Assembly: GCF_013978595.1 (NCBI RefSeq)
Contig: NZ_JACDTZ010000001.1
Coordinates: 372,001-436,000 of the forward strand
DNA from: Corynebacterium haematomassiliense
GTDB lineage: Bacteria; Actinomycetota; Actinomycetes; Mycobacteriales; Mycobacteriaceae
Direction of reading: 5' to 3'
Length of the DNA: 64,000 nucleotides
Shown: piece by piece, positions 43,345 to 52,957 of the stretch
Position numbering within the stretch: position 1 is the first letter of the stretch
Layout of the letters: each line of letters starts with the position of its first letter
Notes under the pieces: generated by a model
What the model saw: the letters and a program-made list of their open reading frames with translations, nothing else
Told to the model about the DNA's origin: nothing
Database searches by the model: none
Program-made: the position numbers and the translations under genes

Positions 43345-44112
43345 TTATTGGGTCAGTCGCATGTTGGTGCCTTCGAGTGTGATGATTTCGGCGCCGGCGA
43401 CGAGTCGGTTGAGGATGGATTCGGCGATGACGGCATCGGGGATGGATTTGTACCACTCGTCGGGTGTGAACTGGGATGTCACGATGGTGGATCCGCGGGG
43501 TTCGCGCTCTGCGAGGATGTTGAGCAGTTGGTGTGCGGTGACGGCATCGATTGGGGTGGTCAGGAAGTCGTCGAGGACTAACACGTCTGTGTGGTGGAGG
43601 TCTTCGAGGAATGTGATGCGGGCTGGGTCGTCGTGTTTGAGCACGGCGAGGTGGTTGGCAAGTGTGTCGGTGCGGAAGAAGCGTGCGGAGTAGTCGTTTC
43701 GGCACGCCGCGGTGAGTAGTGCTTGGGCGAGGTAGGTTTTGCCGACGGAGGATTTGCCCAGGATGACAATGTTTTGTGCGCTTTGGCACCATTGGCAGTG
43801 AGCGAGTCGGGTGATTTGCTCTTTGTTGATGGTGCGGCCGGGCGTGTAGGTGATGTCTTCGATACAAGCATCGGGATTTGGCGATCGGGATGCTTTGAGC
43901 AGTTTGTTGACTCGCCTCTCACGCTTGGCCGCTACCTCTTTATCGAGTGCGTAGAGCACTTTGTCGGAGAAGCTCCAGTCGTCGAATGCGGGATCGGCGG
44001 CGATGTCGATGACGCTTTGTCCGAAGGCGGTCATGCGTAGATCGGTAAAGATCGGCAGGACTGATTCGTCGAGGAAGCGGGCGGATGATGATGCTGGTTG
44101 CGGGTGGGGCAT
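43345..44112 (-). CDS. istB: IS21-family transposition helper ATPase IstB
   Basis: A 255-aa AAA+ ATPase that loads the transposase on target DNA. Walker A is GKSSVGKTYLA (near residue 120), Walker B VLVLDDFLTTP (near 177), sensor VTSQFTPDEW. Full-length for the family. It starts 3 bp after the istA stop, the usual tight coupling. Confidence 0.92.
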   Translation of the reverse strand: MPHPQPASSSARFLDESVLPIFTDLRMTAFGQSVIDIAADPAFDDWSFSDKVLYALDKEVAAKRERRVNKLLKASRSPNPDACIEDITYTPGRTINKEQITRLAHCQWCQSAQNIVILGKSSVGKTYLAQALLTAACRNDYSARFFRTDTLANHLAVLKHDDPARITFLEDLHHTDVLVLDDFLTTPIDAVTAHQLLNILAEREPRGSTIVTSQFTPDEWYKSIPDAVIAESILNRLVAGAEIITLEGTNMRLTQ

Positions 44113-44115
44113 GGG

Positions 44116-45756
44116 TTATGCAGATCCTTTCTTGGTGAGGTTTTCGAGGCTGAACTGGGCAGCACCACCGAGGTAGGCGCCGCGGGTGTCACGCGCTGAC
44201 GGGGCAGGCGCACCGTCAGCGGGTCTGCCGGTTAATTGATCGGTTGGCAGGTCAGTGCCTGTAGGTCGTGTGGAGGTGTCTTTGCGCACGGCGGCCATCA
44301 TGTTTTTCACCGCGGTATACGACACAGCACGCCTGGCGCCGTCGGTGGACACCAACCGCCTGCAGGCTTCTTCGAGGATTGGCTTGTTGGTGTGTTTGCC
44401 CATGCTGAGCACGTTGCGGCACGCTTGGTACGCCTGGGCAGGGATCGCTTTGGCTTCGATGATCTCGGCAATCACCTGGCGGGTGGCCGGCCCGATCTTG
44501 GCGGCTTCGCGCAGGAAGTACTCGCTTGTCCATAACCCACGGGTGTCACCTATGTTCGCCGGGATGTGGTCGGTGTCGGTGACATACACCCCGCGGGCAC
44601 GCGCGAGTTGGTGTCTGGCCACACGCTGCCCGGCGTCGAAGACGGCGAGACTGTCACCGGTGATACGCACATCCACGGTGCGGCCCACCAGCTGGTTGGG
44701 CACCGAGTAATGCGCGTTGTGCACTCTGATGTGGAAATTAGGCGCGACTTTGGCGCGTTTCCATTCGGTACGCTGCCACGGTGTTTCAGGCAGCGCGGTG
44801 AGCACGTCGCGTTCGAACTGATCAAACAATGCGCGCCTGCTCGTCGCATTGCCGCGAAACGGCGTGGCAGCGTTGATCCCATCGACTAGGACGGTAATTT
44901 TTGCGTTGAGCTCGTCTATTCCGGCGCACTGGTGGCCATCGAGTGCGTGGATAACGTTCTGGGTGACAATCTTGACTGCAGCTTCAACGCTGGCCTTATC
45001 CTTGGGACGTTTCGCCCGAGCCGGCAACGCGGCGGTGTTGTAGTGCTCCAAAAACTCCTCGTAGGTGGAGTTGACCCGGCGATTCCTGTCCGCGGCACTG
45101 ATCACATTCGAAGCCGTTGAGGCATTATCCGGCACGATGACCTCGGCAACCCCGCCGAAGTACTCGAACGCGCGGATATGGGCTGCAAGCCACGCGTCCT
45201 GGCGCTCATCCGCGCACGCGCAGGCGAACACCATGCCCGAATACGGCAGCGAGGCGACAAAGATGCTGACCTTCGAGCCTTGCCCGCCGGTGGGGTCAAA
45301 CAACCGCATCTTCGTGCCTGCCCAGTCCACCTGCATCGTATGGCCTGGGGCATGGGTGATCCTGGCGGTCAGCCCGGCTGCATCAACGTGTTGAGCCACA
45401 AGTTGGCGAAACCGCTCGTAGCTGTAGTACCGCTGGCCTGTGCCCGCAGGCTGTGCGGTGTAGCGGCCCCACAGCACCTGCAGGGTCACTTTGTTGCGCC
45501 CGGTGCGCGCTTTGGCGACAGCGTCGAAATCGATCGGGACGAAATCGCCCTGAGCATGGCTGCGCCCGTCGACGAACCAGTCCGCCAGCTCATGATCCGC
45601 AACCCCACGAAGTTGCTCACGGGTTGTGATGTTGTGTTCCACCAGCGCATCGCGTGCTTTTTGCACCGTGGTGTGCGAGCACCGCAGACTCGAACAGATT
45701 TGGCGGACAGACCAGCCTTTGAGCACTTGATCCATTACCGCCCGGTAGTCAGTCAC
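44116..45756 (-). CDS. istA: IS21-family transposase IstA
   Basis: A 546-aa DDE transposase. An N-terminal helix-turn-helix (MDQVLKGWSVRQICSSLRCS) is followed by an rve integrase core with Asp in MQVDWAGTKM (near 145), VPDNASTAS (near 215) and a downstream Glu in KDKASVEAAV. A C-terminal beta-barrel-like region follows. No frameshift or internal stop seen, so it appears functional. Confidence 0.92.
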   Translation of the reverse strand: MTDYRAVMDQVLKGWSVRQICSSLRCSHTTVQKARDALVEHNITTREQLRGVADHELADWFVDGRSHAQGDFVPIDFDAVAKARTGRNKVTLQVLWGRYTAQPAGTGQRYYSYERFRQLVAQHVDAAGLTARITHAPGHTMQVDWAGTKMRLFDPTGGQGSKVSIFVASLPYSGMVFACACADERQDAWLAAHIRAFEYFGGVAEVIVPDNASTASNVISAADRNRRVNSTYEEFLEHYNTAALPARAKRPKDKASVEAAVKIVTQNVIHALDGHQCAGIDELNAKITVLVDGINAATPFRGNATSRRALFDQFERDVLTALPETPWQRTEWKRAKVAPNFHIRVHNAHYSVPNQLVGRTVDVRITGDSLAVFDAGQRVARHQLARARGVYVTDTDHIPANIGDTRGLWTSEYFLREAAKIGPATRQVIAEIIEAKAIPAQAYQACRNVLSMGKHTNKPILEEACRRLVSTDGARRAVSYTAVKNMMAAVRKDTSTRPTGTDLPTDQLTGRPADGAPAPSARDTRGAYLGGAAQFSLENLTKKGSA

Positions 45757-45879: not shown

Positions 45880-46075
45880 GACCGCGCAACAAACCGCCCC
45901 TCCCACTGTTGCGAAAACCAGAGTGAGACACTGCGCCGGAGCGATTTAGCGAACCGTCTTGCGACCCGCTTGCTCTGACGGAGCAACACGCCTAGTCGCA
46001 GACCTCGATCCGCCCACCCCCTGCCACTCAACCCAGAGCTTTGACCCGCTTTCTGAGTGGGTAACGTTTGTTGGC
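45880..46075. other. Intergenic region between IS21 and the lipoprotein gene
   Basis: No gene seen. TTGACC near 46042 and TAACGT near 46062 could be promoter elements for the lipoprotein gene, with a short spacer. Confidence 0.3.
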
Positions 46076-46561
46076 ATGAAGAAGACTATTTCCGCTCTCG
46101 CCGCGGTCTCCGCAATGTTTCTCGCGTCGTGCTCCGGTACGGAAACAGACTCGTCCCAGTCACAGGAGACAGCGCAAGCCGGTTACGAGGTCGGCGACTT
46201 TTTGCTTAACGTCGTAGACGTCGCCGACCCGTCAAGCGTCACGGAAGTCGAAATGCCGGACTACGAAGGTCGCAAGCAGGTTTCCGTTACGGCAGACGTG
46301 ACGAACAACTCCGAGGAAGGGGTTGACCTGGCATGCAGTACAGACCTTGAGGTCCAGATCGCGTCCAACGGCTCCGCGTGGGGCAACGTCGGCTACCTGG
46401 AGCGCGTACCCGACAACCCGCAGTGCGGTGACTTAATCGCCCCCGGCGAGACGAAGCAGATGACTTGGGTGTCGCTCATGCCTGAAGAAGCTCAGCCGAC
46501 GGACTTGTTTGTCCAACTCGCTTCCGACCCAAATTTCTTCGAGGAAGTTCCGCTTCGGTAG
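46076..46561 (+). CDS. Hypothetical lipoprotein
   Basis: A 161-aa protein with lipoprotein signal MKKTISALAAVSAMFLASCS (lipobox LASC). The mature part is acidic and beta-rich with a DUF4352-like feel: KQVSVTADVTNNSEEGVDLAC, two later Cys (LAC, PQCGD), and a LIAPGETKQMTWVSLMPEEA segment. DUF4352-type domains are extracellular immunoglobulin-like folds of unknown role. The ATG at 46076 is the only start giving the signal peptide. It is the sole plus-strand gene of the accessory region. Confidence 0.75.
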   Translation: MKKTISALAAVSAMFLASCSGTETDSSQSQETAQAGYEVGDFLLNVVDVADPSSVTEVEMPDYEGRKQVSVTADVTNNSEEGVDLACSTDLEVQIASNGSAWGNVGYLERVPDNPQCGDLIAPGETKQMTWVSLMPEEAQPTDLFVQLASDPNFFEEVPLR

Positions 46562-46679
46562 CCGGGTCAGCGGGCGCTGCGGGGTTCCGAGTAATTCTGG
46601 ACCTAGCTCACAATCAGCCAATTCCTGGCCAGATCTCGTGATCCTTACTTTCTAGTTCAACCGGATCTTTGTCTAGTAG

Positions 46680-47921
46680 TCACCTGGTCCGTTTGGCGAG
46701 CGCGCGCTGTGTGTCAGCAAGGTAGACGAGTTGATTGTTTTGTACCATCTCGTGGCGACTTTTTGAAGCGTTCTTCCACCCTGCATAAGCGCCAGTTATC
46801 GCCGCCACCGAGGCGGTAACTGCTGCTGCGAGGGGATTCGATAAGTCAGGCAAGCCCGCTTTTACCGCTAGATTGACAACTCTCTCGACATCTTCCGGCT
46901 GGACACCAGGAACGTAATCACCGGTTTGAGTCGCGACAAAGGTGACTCCGGGAATCGAGCCCCTTAACAGCCCGGACTTTGTTGCACGCCACGCACCTGA
47001 GAGCGAAGTGTCATCTAGCGCCTCGATAACCGTGCTTACGCGGGGTTCCACGTAGTCGTGCCAAAGATCGTCAAGTGCTTCATCGTCAACGTCTGAGCCA
47101 CATCTCGGATGAAGCATCGCTTCCAATTCGACTACCGCAAGCCTGTATTCCTCCAGAGGAGCTCGAATAATCTTGCGGGCATCCAAAACATTTTCGATAC
47201 TTGCGTTAGGAAATGCAGGCAGGAAAGAAATCATGGCGGTTCCGGTTTTCGTCCTTCGGATTCCCACCTGCTGGCGATTCGCTATCGGAAGGAACCGCTC
47301 TCTTTCAGCCGCAGATACTAGATTCCCCATGAGCGAGTCGAACATGATCGCACCGCCAGTCGCAACGAGTTGGCCTTGGACAACGCCAAGCATTTTGTCC
47401 ACGTCGACTTCGTCTGGCCTAGTGATGACATCGGTCGCCCAGTCAGAATGAATCGTCAACGCACCGGCCGAGACGGCTTGTTCAAGTTGGTCACCACCGT
47501 GGTCCTTCCACATCTTTTCTTGCTGTTTTAAGAGCCTGTGGGCGTCCTCTCGGATGAACTTGTGGTGCCTCTCCGCTTCTCGCCTCTGTTTCCGATTCCC
47601 ATTCTTACTCGCGTTTACGAAGTTTCTGAGCCAGTCGCGCTTTGCAACTCCCGTTTCGTCTAGCGTCATCTCCCGGTTATTACGCTCTGTCCAGAGAATG
47701 AACTCAGCGAGCTCGACTGGCGGCAAGCGTGTGGCATTGGCGTACCACTGAAGTTCACCTGCCGTCATCGAGTAGAGGTGAACATGGTCGCTGTATAGCA
47801 GTGCGCTTGAGGTGAGAGACACGTCTTCGGTTACGCCACCCGGTTCAAGCAAGTAGGCTTCCTGCGGGCCGGAAAGGATTGTGAGCTCGCTTCTCTTCGA
47901 ATTGGTTCGACTCCCTCTCAT
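46680..47921 (-). CDS. Unrecognised 413-aa protein linked to a type III R-M operon
   Basis: It lies 104 bp downstream of the type III restriction subunit on the same strand and shares its lower GC. The N-terminus reads SSALLYSDHVHLYSMTAGEL. A charged helical stretch follows (GNRKQRREAERHHKFIREDA, about 105-140), then a Gly-rich GVVQGQLVATGGAIMFDSLM, FPNASIENVLDARKIIRAPL then EEYRLAVVELEAML, and near the C-terminus a hydrophobic Ala-rich segment (LAAAVTASVAAITGAYAGW) with a charged tail. The LLYSDHV and ENVLDARK patterns loosely recall DUF6236-type proteins, but this is not a firm match. No nuclease or NTPase motif was seen. It may be an accessory defence protein; function unknown. Confidence 0.7.
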   Translation of the reverse strand: MRGSRTNSKRSELTILSGPQEAYLLEPGGVTEDVSLTSSALLYSDHVHLYSMTAGELQWYANATRLPPVELAEFILWTERNNREMTLDETGVAKRDWLRNFVNASKNGNRKQRREAERHHKFIREDAHRLLKQQEKMWKDHGGDQLEQAVSAGALTIHSDWATDVITRPDEVDVDKMLGVVQGQLVATGGAIMFDSLMGNLVSAAERERFLPIANRQQVGIRRTKTGTAMISFLPAFPNASIENVLDARKIIRAPLEEYRLAVVELEAMLHPRCGSDVDDEALDDLWHDYVEPRVSTVIEALDDTSLSGAWRATKSGLLRGSIPGVTFVATQTGDYVPGVQPEDVERVVNLAVKAGLPDLSNPLAAAVTASVAAITGAYAGWKNASKSRHEMVQNNQLVYLADTQRALAKRTR

Positions 47922-48025
47922 TAATTCGTTTCCCTTCGTCGTGGCTATTCAGATTCACCTGATGTGGATAGGCAGATGCAATCTCGGCAATCTCACCCAG
48001 TTACCGACCCGAACCCCGCGCTGTC

Positions 48026-50614
48026 TCACGCCCCGGGATTCGACTTCCGCTTCAGGTCTTCCCACGACTCAGACGCTCGAATATCGGACTCGTAGGCAAT
48101 GACGTAGCCCCACTTCTGACCGACGAAGTCCTCTTCGCCGAGCAGTTCCCGGACGAGCACTCGGGCCGCGGCTCGTTTCGCTTGTACCGTTTCGTCGTCT
48201 CGGCCCTTGTCGGACTTGCCCTCGATAATCCACATCGTGCCGTCGGAGTCCTGGGCGACGAAGTCGGGGTAGTAGGTGTCTCGAGTGGTGTACATGATCG
48301 ACGCACCGTCAGTGGAGTAAAGGCGTTTCCACCATACGATGTCCGAGGTGTAGTTCAGTAGCAGCGCGAGCAGGTACTCTCCGCCCCACGAGTCGAAACT
48401 CGCTGCGGGGAACAGTCCGCGGTTCCAGCCGTCGTAGAACTCGCGGGGCTTGAACTTCGCCTGCTGGTCTTTAGAGAGTTGCTGGAGCACCTCTTTGCCA
48501 AACGGCAAGGTCACGACCTCGTCAATTGGCAGTTCGACCGGAACGATGGTCGTTTCGGTTTGCAGGCTGCTGGCGTGCTGTCGTGCCTTGTCGTTTACAA
48601 GTGCGACGAGCTCGTCTACTGCGGACTGCTTCGCTTTCTCCGTCCAGTGGTCGATACCGGCGTTCGCCATGAAGGTCGGAAGGACGTATTGCACAAGTGT
48701 GATCGCGTTCTTTTTGTCCTGGGTAACAACCCCAAGACCGAATACTCGGCGGGTAAGTTCGCCAATGACGGCGTCTTCCGCTACGGGAGCCGATTCGACT
48801 TCCGCGTCGGTGGTGCGTTTCGTGTCGAGCTTGGACTTTCGCACCACGATTTCTTCGCGCGTGAGTGCTTCTTTGGAGTCGGCGACGCGGCGGGCTGCCC
48901 GGATAATGTTCTCCTCGTCGATGTGGGTGAGAAGGAACGGCGTGGTTGATTTCGCCATGACCGTGGACGGAAACAGGAAGGTCTTTCCTGCGAAGTGTTC
49001 GTTGACCCTGATTTCCGTTGCCGGGATGTAGCCGGCGCGCTGCATGGTCTCGTTGTCACCGACTCGTCGGAATGAGACCCCTCCGGCATTACCACCAGTG
49101 ACCTGGGTAGTTTCGCCGGTCTTGGTGCCGATGTCGCTCGGGCCGTCCGTCGCTTCGGCTGTCGGAGTGTCAGGCCACGCGGTTGAGCCTGAGCCCGAAC
49201 TCGTTTCAGCCTCGGATGAAAGACCGTTCGGGTTTGGCTGTACCTGTCCTTCGCCCTGGCGGAAGCTTTCTTCAACGTCCATGCCGGAGATAGCGCCCTG
49301 GGCGGCATCTCCGAGACCGAAAGAACGGAGCACGTCCTCGTCCTTGAGGAGGGACTTGAACGACTTGTGGCTCAAAATGTCGAGTTGGTCCAGCTCGGCT
49401 ACGCCAGTACGCGCCCCGAAGGGAAGGCGCAGGCCGCGGCCCATGGTCTGCTGGGTGAGAATGTCCGACGACATAGCGCGCAGCGCACACATCACCGCGA
49501 CTCGTTTGGTGTCCCAGCCTTCTTTGAGACGGTCAACGGAAACAATGGCTCGCACCGTCGAGGCAGGGCTATCGAGTTCGTCTAATCGGCGCAGCGTGAC
49601 CGCGTCATTGTGTTTGTTGTCGAACTGGAGCACCGCGTCAGGGTCGCCGAAATAGCCTGGCCCCTGGAGGATCTTGGTGACTTCTCCGGCATGCGCGACG
49701 CTTTCGCAAACGACGAACAGCAGAGGCTTCGTCCGCTTTTTCTCGCCTGCTTCTCCGGGGAAGTTCGCTTGGCCGTACGCCTCGTAGGCAGCCTCTTTGT
49801 TCCGCAACAGTGAGACCGCGTCGAGCAGTTGCCTTTCCTCGGCTGAGTCCTTGGGGTAGCCGTTCTCGCGGTAGATCAGCATCGGCGACTTCACGTAGCC
49901 GTCTTCAATCGCGCTATACAGCGGGTAGTGGAAGATGACGTGGTCCGTATCGGATGCCGAAGCGGTAAGCCCAATCGTGGCAGCGGGACGGAGATCCTTC
50001 AGCGCCTGGTTAAACGCCTTAGCCGAGGTGCCAAACAGGTGAGACTCGTCTGCGATAACCACGAGGTCGTCGAGGTTGACCAGGTAATCGTAGAGCGAGC
50101 CGGACTCTTCCTGGTGGTCGCGAATCTTGCGGCGCATACCGTCTTTGGTGTCTGCGCCTGCGTTTGCGATTTTCGGCTCGATAAGTTGCGACACGTTAAA
50201 GACGTAGACCATCGGACCGTCTGCGGCATTGCGGAAAAGCTCAGACTGGCCGGCACGCCACGCGCCGTAATTGCCAGGCGAAACCACCTGGGGAGCAGAG
50301 GAGAAGCCGTCAACGTAGCGACGCGACCCCTGGGTGAAGTTTTGGACAGTCTTGTTTTCCAATACCGTCGAGGGTGGGACGACCACCATGACGTTTTTCA
50401 CCCCGAAGCGCGAGAGGTACTCAATGAGCGCGGCCATGAGGTAGGTCTTGCCCGCACCTGTGGCCATGTGCAAGACCATCGGCTCTAGCGGGTTAAAGTC
50501 GCCCGTGAGGTGGTAGATGAGCTTGCGCAGCGCACGCTTATTGGGGTCTCGTAGCTGGAACTCTGTCGCAATGCTGTCGATGAGTCCTTGGTCAAGTGCG
50601 ATTGGAAGTGCCAT
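48026..50614 (-). CDS. res: Type III restriction enzyme, Res (helicase-nuclease) subunit
   Basis: An 862-aa motor-nuclease. Superfamily 2 motifs are ATGAGKTYLMAAL (Walker A near residue 55), VVIADESHLFGTS (DExH near 180), ATIGLTASASD, and QQTMGRGLRLPFG (motif VI). The C-terminus has a PD-(D/E)xK nuclease: YYPDFVAQDSDGTMWIIEGK then SDKG. The start at 50614 (MALPIALDQG) is chosen, 2 bp after the mod stop; the frame upstream runs back into mod. With Mod it cleaves unmodified DNA after ATP-driven translocation. No inactivating lesion seen. Confidence 0.9.
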   Translation of the reverse strand: MALPIALDQGLIDSIATEFQLRDPNKRALRKLIYHLTGDFNPLEPMVLHMATGAGKTYLMAALIEYLSRFGVKNVMVVVPPSTVLENKTVQNFTQGSRRYVDGFSSAPQVVSPGNYGAWRAGQSELFRNAADGPMVYVFNVSQLIEPKIANAGADTKDGMRRKIRDHQEESGSLYDYLVNLDDLVVIADESHLFGTSAKAFNQALKDLRPAATIGLTASASDTDHVIFHYPLYSAIEDGYVKSPMLIYRENGYPKDSAEERQLLDAVSLLRNKEAAYEAYGQANFPGEAGEKKRTKPLLFVVCESVAHAGEVTKILQGPGYFGDPDAVLQFDNKHNDAVTLRRLDELDSPASTVRAIVSVDRLKEGWDTKRVAVMCALRAMSSDILTQQTMGRGLRLPFGARTGVAELDQLDILSHKSFKSLLKDEDVLRSFGLGDAAQGAISGMDVEESFRQGEGQVQPNPNGLSSEAETSSGSGSTAWPDTPTAEATDGPSDIGTKTGETTQVTGGNAGGVSFRRVGDNETMQRAGYIPATEIRVNEHFAGKTFLFPSTVMAKSTTPFLLTHIDEENIIRAARRVADSKEALTREEIVVRKSKLDTKRTTDAEVESAPVAEDAVIGELTRRVFGLGVVTQDKKNAITLVQYVLPTFMANAGIDHWTEKAKQSAVDELVALVNDKARQHASSLQTETTIVPVELPIDEVVTLPFGKEVLQQLSKDQQAKFKPREFYDGWNRGLFPAASFDSWGGEYLLALLLNYTSDIVWWKRLYSTDGASIMYTTRDTYYPDFVAQDSDGTMWIIEGKSDKGRDDETVQAKRAAARVLVRELLGEEDFVGQKWGYVIAYESDIRASESWEDLKRKSNPGA

Positions 50615-50616
50615 GT

Positions 50617-52632
50617 CTACTTGCCCTCCTGCGTTGCCGTTGCCGAGTAGGTGAAGATGTCGTTCGGAATGTGGACAATCTGGCACGGCTTGCCCGTTGT
50701 CCTCGCGAACTGCCTGATTCCCGGTTCGAGCTCCGTTGCGGCGAGCGTGACACCTTCGCCCTCATTCAGATGGGCGAGAAGATCTTCGGCCTTGTCTTGA
50801 TCGAGTCGGCCTTCGACTACTTTGAGAAACATCGAGCCTCGTTTGCCGTTGAAATGACGGTTGTCCGGGGTGAGCGAGAAGTTGAGGTTCGCTGCGACAG
50901 AGTTGACGAGCGCCGCACCGGTTGCCGCTTCGGTAAGCGTGACGAGACCCAATTCGGGGACGTAGTCGAAACACTGCGGTGCAAGGTGGGCGACAGCAAA
51001 ACCGCCACCGCCGCGCCAGTTGACGACGCCTTTCTGGTTTTTAGTCTTCGTTGCAGTTTTGAGCGCCTTGACTACCGATTCGGTTTTCAATTCGGGATTC
51101 GCTGCGAGCACCTTGTTAAGAGCACTGTTGAACTTCTGGGCGTCTTCTGGCGAAAGACCGTCGGGAAGGCCTTCCTCGGTCGCGTCGACGCGCTCTGGCT
51201 TCTGAATGCTGATTCCGCCCTGGTCTTCGTTATTGATGACCTTCTCAAGGCGGGGGCGAGTGAAGCGGTTGAAGGTGTCCTCCACGAGTTCGCATGTCAC
51301 CCAGCGGCGACCCATCTTCTGGGCTACCGCAGCGGTGGTTCCCGAACCGGCGAACACGTCGAGGACGACGTCTCCGGGATCGGTTGCGATGTGGATGATG
51401 CGCTCTAGGAGCCGCTCTGGTTTGGGGGTGGAGAACGCCGAAGTTCCCGGGAAGAGTGCTCGAATTTCCTTAGCCGCGGTGTCTGTATGCCCGACTTCAC
51501 TGTAGGGCAGTAAGTTCGTAGCAAGCCGTCCTGAGTCTACGTCGGTTAGGTAGGTCTTCCGGCCAAACCCACCAGTACCACCTCTGGTTGGGTAAAACTG
51601 GGGCCAGTTCCCCTCCTCGTAACGTTTCTGAGCATGAACTTTGTTTCTGCTCCAATCTCGCATAACTAGTGGTGGGACGTCGGTTCTCGCCTCGACGCTA
51701 GAACCTGCGACGCGTTGCTGATTTTCGAGTTCTTTGTCAGTGATTTCTCCGCGTTCGTAGGGACCCCAACCAGAGAAGATTTCAAGCATTTTCTCTTGCG
51801 AGAATGGCCAGCATCGACCTGTGGAGGGGTAGGTCATTTCGCCTGTGATGGGGTGCTGGATGCCGTAAATCATTCCGAGATGGGTTACCGCACCCGGAGC
51901 CGATGAGTCCGCGTTCTTCCATGCCCCTCGGGTATCATTGTCCGGGTTCTTATATCGGGCGTCCATCTCCTCCGTCCGCGGCAAACGGTTCGGAAAAAAC
52001 CCACCCGACTTGGAATAAACCAGGATGGTGTCAGTGACTGCGGGAATGCCCTTCGAATCGTTTCTGGGCGAGTAGGTCTTTTCCCAAACCACCTCTGCCA
52101 CAAAGTTTCCACTTCCAAACACTTCGTCCATAAGCACCCGCATCCGGTGGTTTTCCACGTCATCGAGGTGGACCCAAATCGACCCGTCATCGCTAAGAAG
52201 CTTGCGTAGGTGAACCAGACGGTCACGCATCATGGTGAGCCAGACAGAGTGTTCGAGGTTGTCCTCGTAATTGGCGAAGGTTTGTGCGGTGTTAAAAGGA
52301 GGGTCGATGTAAATGCACTTCACCTTGCCGAGGTACTTCTCTCGCAACTCCGGCACGTGAGCAAGAGCTTCAAGCACGTCGCCGGACTCACCGAGGACCA
52401 GCAAATTGTCCTCGGTCGGCTCTAGGTCTGCCCGCTCCGAGTATCGAGTGTCCTCGTCCTTCGGCGACTGCTTGCCGGTGACCACTTCGTCAACAACGAG
52501 TGCCCGAGTCTCGCAGTACCGCGGGTCTTTCGGGTCAACCCACTCGTATGCGTAGCGTCCCTCTTCGCTGGGGATGAGCGCCTTGTCCTTGTTGAACCAG
52601 GTCAATTCGAGTAATTGCTTCGCGCCGGCCAC
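50617..52632 (-). CDS. mod: Type III DNA adenine methyltransferase, Mod subunit
   Basis: A 671-aa beta-class N6-adenine methyltransferase that protects and recognises the target site. Catalytic motif IV is IYIDPPFNTAQTF (near residue 92) and SAM motif I VLDVFAGSGTTAAVAQKMGR lies after it (near 420), the beta-class order. The target-recognition region is between them. The start is GTG at 52632. It is the first gene of the mod-res operon. No simple-sequence tract suggesting phase variation was noticed. Confidence 0.92.
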   Translation of the reverse strand: MAGAKQLLELTWFNKDKALIPSEEGRYAYEWVDPKDPRYCETRALVVDEVVTGKQSPKDEDTRYSERADLEPTEDNLLVLGESGDVLEALAHVPELREKYLGKVKCIYIDPPFNTAQTFANYEDNLEHSVWLTMMRDRLVHLRKLLSDDGSIWVHLDDVENHRMRVLMDEVFGSGNFVAEVVWEKTYSPRNDSKGIPAVTDTILVYSKSGGFFPNRLPRTEEMDARYKNPDNDTRGAWKNADSSAPGAVTHLGMIYGIQHPITGEMTYPSTGRCWPFSQEKMLEIFSGWGPYERGEITDKELENQQRVAGSSVEARTDVPPLVMRDWSRNKVHAQKRYEEGNWPQFYPTRGGTGGFGRKTYLTDVDSGRLATNLLPYSEVGHTDTAAKEIRALFPGTSAFSTPKPERLLERIIHIATDPGDVVLDVFAGSGTTAAVAQKMGRRWVTCELVEDTFNRFTRPRLEKVINNEDQGGISIQKPERVDATEEGLPDGLSPEDAQKFNSALNKVLAANPELKTESVVKALKTATKTKNQKGVVNWRGGGGFAVAHLAPQCFDYVPELGLVTLTEAATGAALVNSVAANLNFSLTPDNRHFNGKRGSMFLKVVEGRLDQDKAEDLLAHLNEGEGVTLAATELEPGIRQFARTTGKPCQIVHIPNDIFTYSATATQEGK

Positions 52633-52875: not shown

Positions 52876-52883
52876 GAAAAGCG

Positions 52884-52957
52884 TGCCCCAGGTGAGACTC
52901 GAACTCACACTGGACGGGTTTTGAATCCGTTGCCTCTGCCAATTGGGCTACTGGGGC
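52884..52957 (-). tRNA. tRNA-Leu (CAA), short variable arm
   Basis: A 74-nt minus-strand cloverleaf. Acceptor GCCCCAG/CTGGGGC with A73, anticodon loop TTCAAAA giving CAA, T-loop GTTCGAGTC. The variable region is only 5 nt (CCAGT), whereas leucine tRNAs normally have a long variable arm; the last anticodon-stem pair is A-C. The amino acid is assigned from the anticodon only. Confidence 0.8.

Follow-up and report, generated by a model that had tools for sequence, protein, structure and literature searches.

The gene behind a type III restriction-modification operon of Corynebacterium haematomassiliense, here called X, encodes a 413-amino-acid protein that probably represents an undescribed anti-phage protein, as its position in the operon suggests. 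The slot in which X resides holds other cargo, including CBASS genes, in near relatives of the operon; cargo is swapped in this slot, and the lineages of X do not track the lineage of Res. We lean towards the reading that X is an autonomous, interchangeable anti-phage cargo carried behind a mobile type III operon in the vicinity of a tRNA gene. The earlier suggestion of an independent, undescribed defence protein thus stands as a well supported hypothesis with regard to the slot, which holds CBASS, ThsB-TIR/HIT and DUF3800 genes in relatives, and to the exchange of X and CBASS, while the activity itself is what we infer.

The type III operon and its surroundings

The window, i.e. the whole stretch of 64,000 nucleotides that was analysed, contains X as an ATG-started ORF on the minus strand (46680..47921). 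It is the third gene behind mod (50617..52632) and res (48026..50686), which lie on the same strand, in agreement with the earlier note. X starts 107 bp past the last sense codon of res, and no terminator-like site is listed on that strand between the two genes. Since relatives were recovered in other genomes and on plasmids, with a best E-value of 1.9e-32 in the search with the single X protein, X is regarded as a real gene and not as a chance ORF. The assignment of the operon to type III was confirmed by both PADLOC and Pfam: mod encodes a type III DNA methyltransferase (N6_N4_Mtase, 2.8e-42; MTase_III, 3e-156) and res a restriction subunit with a ResIII/DEAD-like helicase (ResIII, 1.4e-16; REase_III, 1.3e-49). 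Within the segment 51511-51826 of mod, the DNA no longer resembles that of the nearest relative, G514, while both flanks stay alike; this segment is probably an exchanged target-recognition part.

The lower GC content attributed to the three genes was evident, with 54.4% for X, 56.8% for mod and 59.2% for res in comparison to 64.1% for the window and 65.4% for polA. At third codon positions the values were 58.0% for X, 66.5% for mod, 71.9% for res and 88.4% for polA. A GC content of X below that of res, mod and polA fits a foreign origin.

A tRNA-Leu(CAA) gene is located about 250 bp upstream of mod (52883..52957, minus strand; ARAGORN; Rfam tRNA, 54.5 bits). Beyond X follow a convergent gene for a predicted lipoprotein (45959..46561, plus strand; Pfam DUF5067 below the cut-off) and an IS21 element on the minus strand (43345..45756; Pfam IstB_IS21, 7.7e-46; NCBIfam IS21 transposase, 9.9e-63) comprising istB (43345-44112) and istA (44116-45756). 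Visual inspection of the 85 N-terminal residues of all ORFs of 150 amino acids or more suggested core or metabolic genes for the rest of the window, so that the term defence-rich region, as used in the earlier note, was too strong. The accessory block is confined to mod-res-X, the lipoprotein gene and the IS21 element by tRNA-Leu. Genomic islands often sit near tRNA genes, and the same appears to apply to this operon, since seven of the 12 regions L089-L100 contained a tRNA gene, either Leu(CAA) (G514, G516, G060 and G009) or Arg(CCT) (G073, G529 and G568), at about 0.25-2.2 kb upstream of mod according to the coordinates. It is possible that tRNA-Leu(CAA) anchors the island in the window.

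A variable cargo slot behind res

A search with Res yielded 12 loci at 85-100% identity, our own included. The other 11 loci were fetched for a survey of the region behind res, together with the locus of G561, whose Res is 57% identical. Alignments with the 11 other loci lost DNA identity on the res side at positions 48007-48035 and regained it on the far side at 46584 (G529) or 46580 (G110). These breaks delimit a variable cargo slot (46585..48025) which extends from the end of res to the conserved lipoprotein gene; at the far side of the CBASS cargo the latter shares 91% DNA identity with the window in G529 and 79% in G110.

In each of the 12 loci with Res identities of at least 85%, same-strand cargo was present within about 210 bp of res, and it belonged to five unrelated kinds. 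X was found in our own genome (G000) and in G073, the SLATT and CD-NTase genes of a CBASS system in three genomes (G529, G110 and G021), a ThsB-TIR protein with a HIT protein and a transmembrane protein in two (G060 and G589), a DUF3800 gene in three (G067, G516 and G009) and a small unclassified protein of 190-211 amino acids in two (G514 and G568). One representative of each kind other than X was typed (CD-NTase, 6.6e-157; SLATT_4, 3.5e-46; ThsB, 1e-56; HIT/ThsC, 4.4e-19; DUF3800, 3.9e-15), and the remaining ones were classified by eye on account of clearly similar translations. The L089 copy of the small protein (L089:5729-6361, minus strand; also behind res in L096) had no match in Pfam or PADLOC. 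It carries a hydrophobic-looking C-terminus and an N-V-H-G-D-V-x-G-G-Q-V-G-I-N-N stretch, which presumably recalls bacterial amyloid signalling motifs. In G561 the cargo was a GajA-like gene (5.6e-186).

On the DNA tree of res (12 rows), the cargo changed nine times, the maximum for kinds represented 3, 3, 2, 2 and 2 times, and no resolved sister pair shared its cargo. The exchange is apparent between G073 and G529, whose DNA is 97.0% identical along 3,865 bp beside the cargo and 94.9-99.0% identical in the surroundings of the mod start and further on. What separates res from the flank on the cargo side is X in G073, and the CBASS genes plus a lipoprotein gene in G529. The window and G529, in turn, share the lipoprotein gene that bounds the slot opposite res (91% DNA identity), with X as cargo in the one and CBASS in the other. 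In G514, Res is 97.5% identical to that of the window and the polA and IS21 flanks are shared, and the slot contains the small protein.

The earlier note had proposed to check whether X co-occurs with type III genes. This co-occurrence is partial, as the slot holds X in two of the 12 loci and something else in ten. Such inconstancy bears on the reading of X as an accessory subunit through which the type III restriction enzyme would change its specificity or activity. The common strand, the short distance to res and the lack of a listed terminator-like site between the genes would agree with a subunit, but a subunit would be expected to accompany its mod-res lineage, whereas X gives way to other cargo in 10 of 12 close Res relatives and elsewhere stands beside an unrelated type III system as well as type I and type IIG-like systems. 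We therefore consider this reading highly improbable.

More distant type III loci (n=20, Res identities of 45-49%) were inspected by eye. A same-strand gene within 60 bp of res was present at six of them, a count that omits a peptidase-like ORF overlapping the res stop in L135, and none of these genes was obviously CBASS, Thoeris or another known system. The slot thus appears to be a habit of this operon lineage and not a general trait of type III systems. Other same-strand genes seen by eye behind res in distant loci were a 369-amino-acid HNH-like gene (L137 and L138) and a 289-amino-acid gene (L143 and L149). Our own genome harbours a second type III res (G000:C1:272659-275238, L134; 47% identical) with a gene for 165 amino acids 8 bp behind it, and a similar gene is located behind the res of G055.

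An exchange of toxin-like genes among restriction loci is already in print: type I and type III systems are proposed to swap such partners repeatedly (Makarova et al. 2012, PMC3506569). What the present analysis contributes is one particular slot, a swap with CBASS that has been measured, and X as a new occupant. A literature search, which covered few subscription journals, revealed no title on this cargo slot.

Relatives of X and their neighbourhoods

Searched with the single X protein, 8 of 201 genomes contained a match. A profile built from 14 rows matched 12 of 242 Corynebacterium genomes, one of them (G110) by a fragment, as well as 5 of 397 genomes of the order and 6 of 394 of the class, our own being included in each of these counts. 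Matches were also obtained for 7 of 72,556 plasmid records. Relatives of X, as recognised by sequence similarity, thus occur spread across the Actinomycetota. A phage origin was considered and rejected: none of 50,697 phage records matched the X of the window, and none of the viral contigs matched the five-row subgroup A2, a scan that applies to A2 and lies outside the branch of the window X.

X appears to move independently of the operon. The X proteins of the window and of G073 are only 26.6-27% identical, whereas their Res proteins are 94.5% identical; most simply, X entered the slot twice. The G073 protein is 75% identical to the X of G071, and neither mod nor res was found in the 20-kb region around the latter. 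In G079, X follows 17 bp after the res stop of a different type III pair, whose Mod matches PDLC03645 at 1.4e-229 and whose Res matches the REase_III models weakly (2.3e-5); this X falls within the same supported clade (99/97) as those of the window and G073. The simplest reading of these sequences is that X reached the 3' ends of type III operons at least three times. A single entry followed by faster evolution of X would be compatible with them as well, and the exact place of the window X in the tree is unsure due to its long branch (1.9).

The neighbourhoods of 22 other X loci were compared, a set that excludes the window, G073 and the truncated, fragmentary or duplicate entries G021, G625, G110, G748 and DN22. 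A strong defence neighbour was present at six loci: type III genes in G079, type I methyltransferase and specificity genes in G094, type IIG-like genes in G098, GajA/GajB (Gabija) with a DUF262-type gene in Arthrobacter (L044), a CBASS cyclase with a 4TM effector in L046 and, by annotation alone, a type ISP enzyme in Dermacoccus (L011). Another five loci had intermediate neighbours, namely a SIR2-like protein recognised by eye in G203 (L051:10982-12802), which had no PADLOC match at 1e-6, PD-T4-5 in Nocardioides (L042; 3.3e-14), a methyltransferase in R. opacus (3.9e-7), a DUF262-like protein recognised by eye in Yimella/G905 and an annotated TIR protein in Paenarthrobacter. At the remaining 11 loci, no recognised defence gene was seen by annotation or eye within about 4 kb. 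These were G071, G003, G289, G863, G773, C. callunae, Rhodococcus RDE2 and CERE8, Pseudarthrobacter L045, Tessaracoccus L048 and G508; the latter has a neighbour that by eye resembles DUF4062 and has no PADLOC match. Homologues consistently located away from defence genes had been named as evidence against a defence role. Such a pattern was not observed, given 6 of 22 loci with strong and 5 of 22 with intermediate neighbours. Defence genes beside X are recurrent, not universal.

In a tally at 1e-15, 211 PADLOC families were matched by 128 ORFs of the 22 X loci and 35 by 117 ORFs of 17 random regions from nine genomes; as families were counted and not proteins or loci, these figures give no rate per locus. 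ORF L010:14273-18355 was left out of the X set and three of the 20 random regions (L127-L129) out of the control. The random regions, which carried PADLOC matches of their own in the form of a Jet/Wadjet-type locus, are unmatched controls, because they stem from chromosomes of the own genus, while plasmids and other genera are represented among the X loci.

The earlier alternative of a protein accessory to type III restriction-modification retains the fact that X follows mod-res, but it has become less likely, with relatives located beside type I, type IIG, Gabija, CBASS or no defence gene. Coupling could also be physical, in the form of a PrrC-like guard which Mod/Res would keep inactive until a phage blocks restriction. 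A precedent exists in PrrC and its type Ic partner PrrI, and X does lie in tight linkage with the mod-res genes of two unrelated type III systems, as well as in the vicinity of type I and type IIG genes. Like the toxin genes coupled to restriction-modification in PMC3506569, X would be a candidate for cell arrest whose gene is linked to those of restriction. In contrast to PrrC, it has neither an ABC NTPase nor an ACNase (HEPN) domain according to Pfam and PADLOC, and its coupling to restriction is putative. The partners of X differ in enzyme kind (two type III families, type I and type IIG), several loci have no recognised restriction-modification neighbour, and the slot also accepts CBASS or ThsB modules, which are autonomous. 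Altogether, we regard a PrrC-like guard as quite doubtful.

The loci lacking a recognised defence neighbour may instead point to a mobile passenger with another role, such as plasmid or island maintenance or competition, which happens to occupy the same tRNA islands and plasmids as defence genes. Several relatives of this kind are found on plasmids or near recombinases or transposases, and proteins of the related family DUF6236 are likewise present on Streptomyces and Kitasatospora plasmids. The slot in the window, however, otherwise receives mostly defence-type modules, and X replaces CBASS there between near-identical flanks, which makes a mere passenger unlikely, if still worth considering.

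Anatomy of X and its proposed role

The absence of a recognisable domain, as stated before, was corroborated by searches against Pfam, NCBIfam and PADLOC, in which X had no match at E<=1; the PHROGs database provided only a chance-level match (E 0.18). The profile and structure-prediction searches recommended in the earlier note were performed and gave no reliable fold match, yet disclosed a kinship of the C-terminal half with DUF6236. In the AlphaFold2 domain model of residues 9-308 (pLDDT 80.5, pTM 0.75), a long helical hairpin comes after an alpha/beta core that contains a helical insertion. The model of full-length X reached a pLDDT of 64.7, with values below 50 for the last 97 residues (317-413). 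Neither the full nor the domain model had a Foldseek match in the PDB at E<=0.001, nor did the domain model among viral models at the same threshold; VIA-align returned no Z>=8 for the X models, and the matches of X profiles to PDB sequences were at chance level (best E 0.25). The weak VIA-align rows of the alpha/beta part (a DsrE/F-like protein, Z 6.3; arginyl-tRNA synthetases, about 5; a nicotinate nucleotide adenylyltransferase, 4.8) belonged to several folds and were rejected as indications of function.

The predicted anatomy of X comprises two parts. Residues 10-231 (47229..47894, minus strand) are modelled as an alpha/beta core of four strands with a helical insertion and bear, as conserved alignment columns, an L-L-Y-x-D motif (Y43, D45) and the invariant D195. 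M1, Y43, A149, D195, L234 and P235 are invariant in the alignment of 19 X rows; a catalytic motif was not identifiable in X. Residues 232-413 (46683..47228, minus strand) contain an L-P motif, a long helical hairpin, an Ala-rich stretch and a C-terminal Y-L motif, all of which are shared with the C-terminal half of DUF6236.

For the comparison with DUF6236 (Pfam PF19749), eight proteins of this family were collected, aligned and compared as a profile with that of X. In hhalign, the whole profiles aligned with a probability of 93.7 (E 2e-7, score 62), and the controls, one reversed and 20 column-shuffled, gave scores of 10-19 at probabilities under 1. With the C-terminal halves alone, the probability was 96.0 (E 4.1e-9, 141 columns; reversed control 0.17), in contrast to 0.11 for the N-terminal halves. 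By profile comparison, the C-terminal half of X is distantly related to that of DUF6236. Both groups occur in Actinomycetota, on plasmid records among others. As the Pfam DUF6236 model itself (gathering score 26.2 bits) had no match at E<=1 in the window X, X was not filed as a member of the family; none of the 14 X members (A1) matches that model, and DUF6236 is absent from all 10 families that they do match. A joint C-terminal profile of X and DUF6236 matched 9 of 326 genomes across the phylum, our own included. Three of the proteins obtained with it (L156-L158) have a DUF6236-like N-terminus or none that was recognised, and their L-Y-W/F-D motif resembles by eye the L-L-Y-x-D of X and seems intermediate. 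DUF6236 carries no function in its Pfam name, and no paper mentioning it by name was found, few subscription journals being covered.

The C-terminal hydrophobic helix claimed previously did not withstand comparison with shuffled sequences. Its best 19-residue hydropathy of 1.36 was matched by 25% of shuffles of the same stretch and 54% of whole-protein shuffles; the usual threshold is 1.6. A membrane-active effector with an Ala-rich C-terminus inserting into the membrane would be consistent with the richness of this stretch in small and aliphatic residues across the X family and DUF6236, but the hydropathy peaks are mostly below 1.6 and the region is modelled at a pLDDT below 50. Because the hydropathy does not exceed that of shuffles, this reading, very unlikely in our view, was not adopted.

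With respect to known systems, X holds the same slot behind the same res as the CBASS pair of SLATT effector and CD-NTase in G529, G110 and G021, but it is one gene instead of two and lacks both the cyclase and the SLATT domain. The cyclase models of PADLOC and the Pfam family SMODS did not match X, and in Pfam none of six surrounding proteins had a CD-NTase match. Similarly, X shares the slot with the Thoeris-like ThsB/HIT/TM cargo of G060 and G589 and differs from it by the lack of TIR or HIT similarity in Pfam and PADLOC.

CBASS and ThsB modules work on their own. The slot position argues for X as a defence protein, as does the exchange with autonomous systems for its autonomy, and the two parts predicted for X point to a sensor combined with an acting or assembling part. 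The most likely mode would be that of an autonomous single-gene protein of the abortive-infection type. Its N-terminal alpha/beta domain may sense a ligand made by the phage or arising from stress, upon which the DUF6236-like helical module at the C-terminus would assemble or act on a host target. The infected cell would stop before the phage is released, with restriction as a first layer and X as a putative backup when restriction fails.

A far more speculative extension, to which we attach little credence, is that X founds an undescribed actinobacterial family of single-gene abortive-infection proteins with a DUF6236-like C-terminus and a variable N-terminal sensor, which plugs into a dedicated type III cargo slot and becomes active once restriction has been disabled by a phage. 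The operon would then be a mobile chassis that swaps its backup module as it swaps its specificity. The slot offers natural allele swaps, in which the same operon, between near-identical flanks, carries either X or CBASS depending on the genome. A single-gene exchange could therefore reveal whether X defends the cell and whether such backups are tied to restriction, and X would provide the first functional lead for DUF6236.
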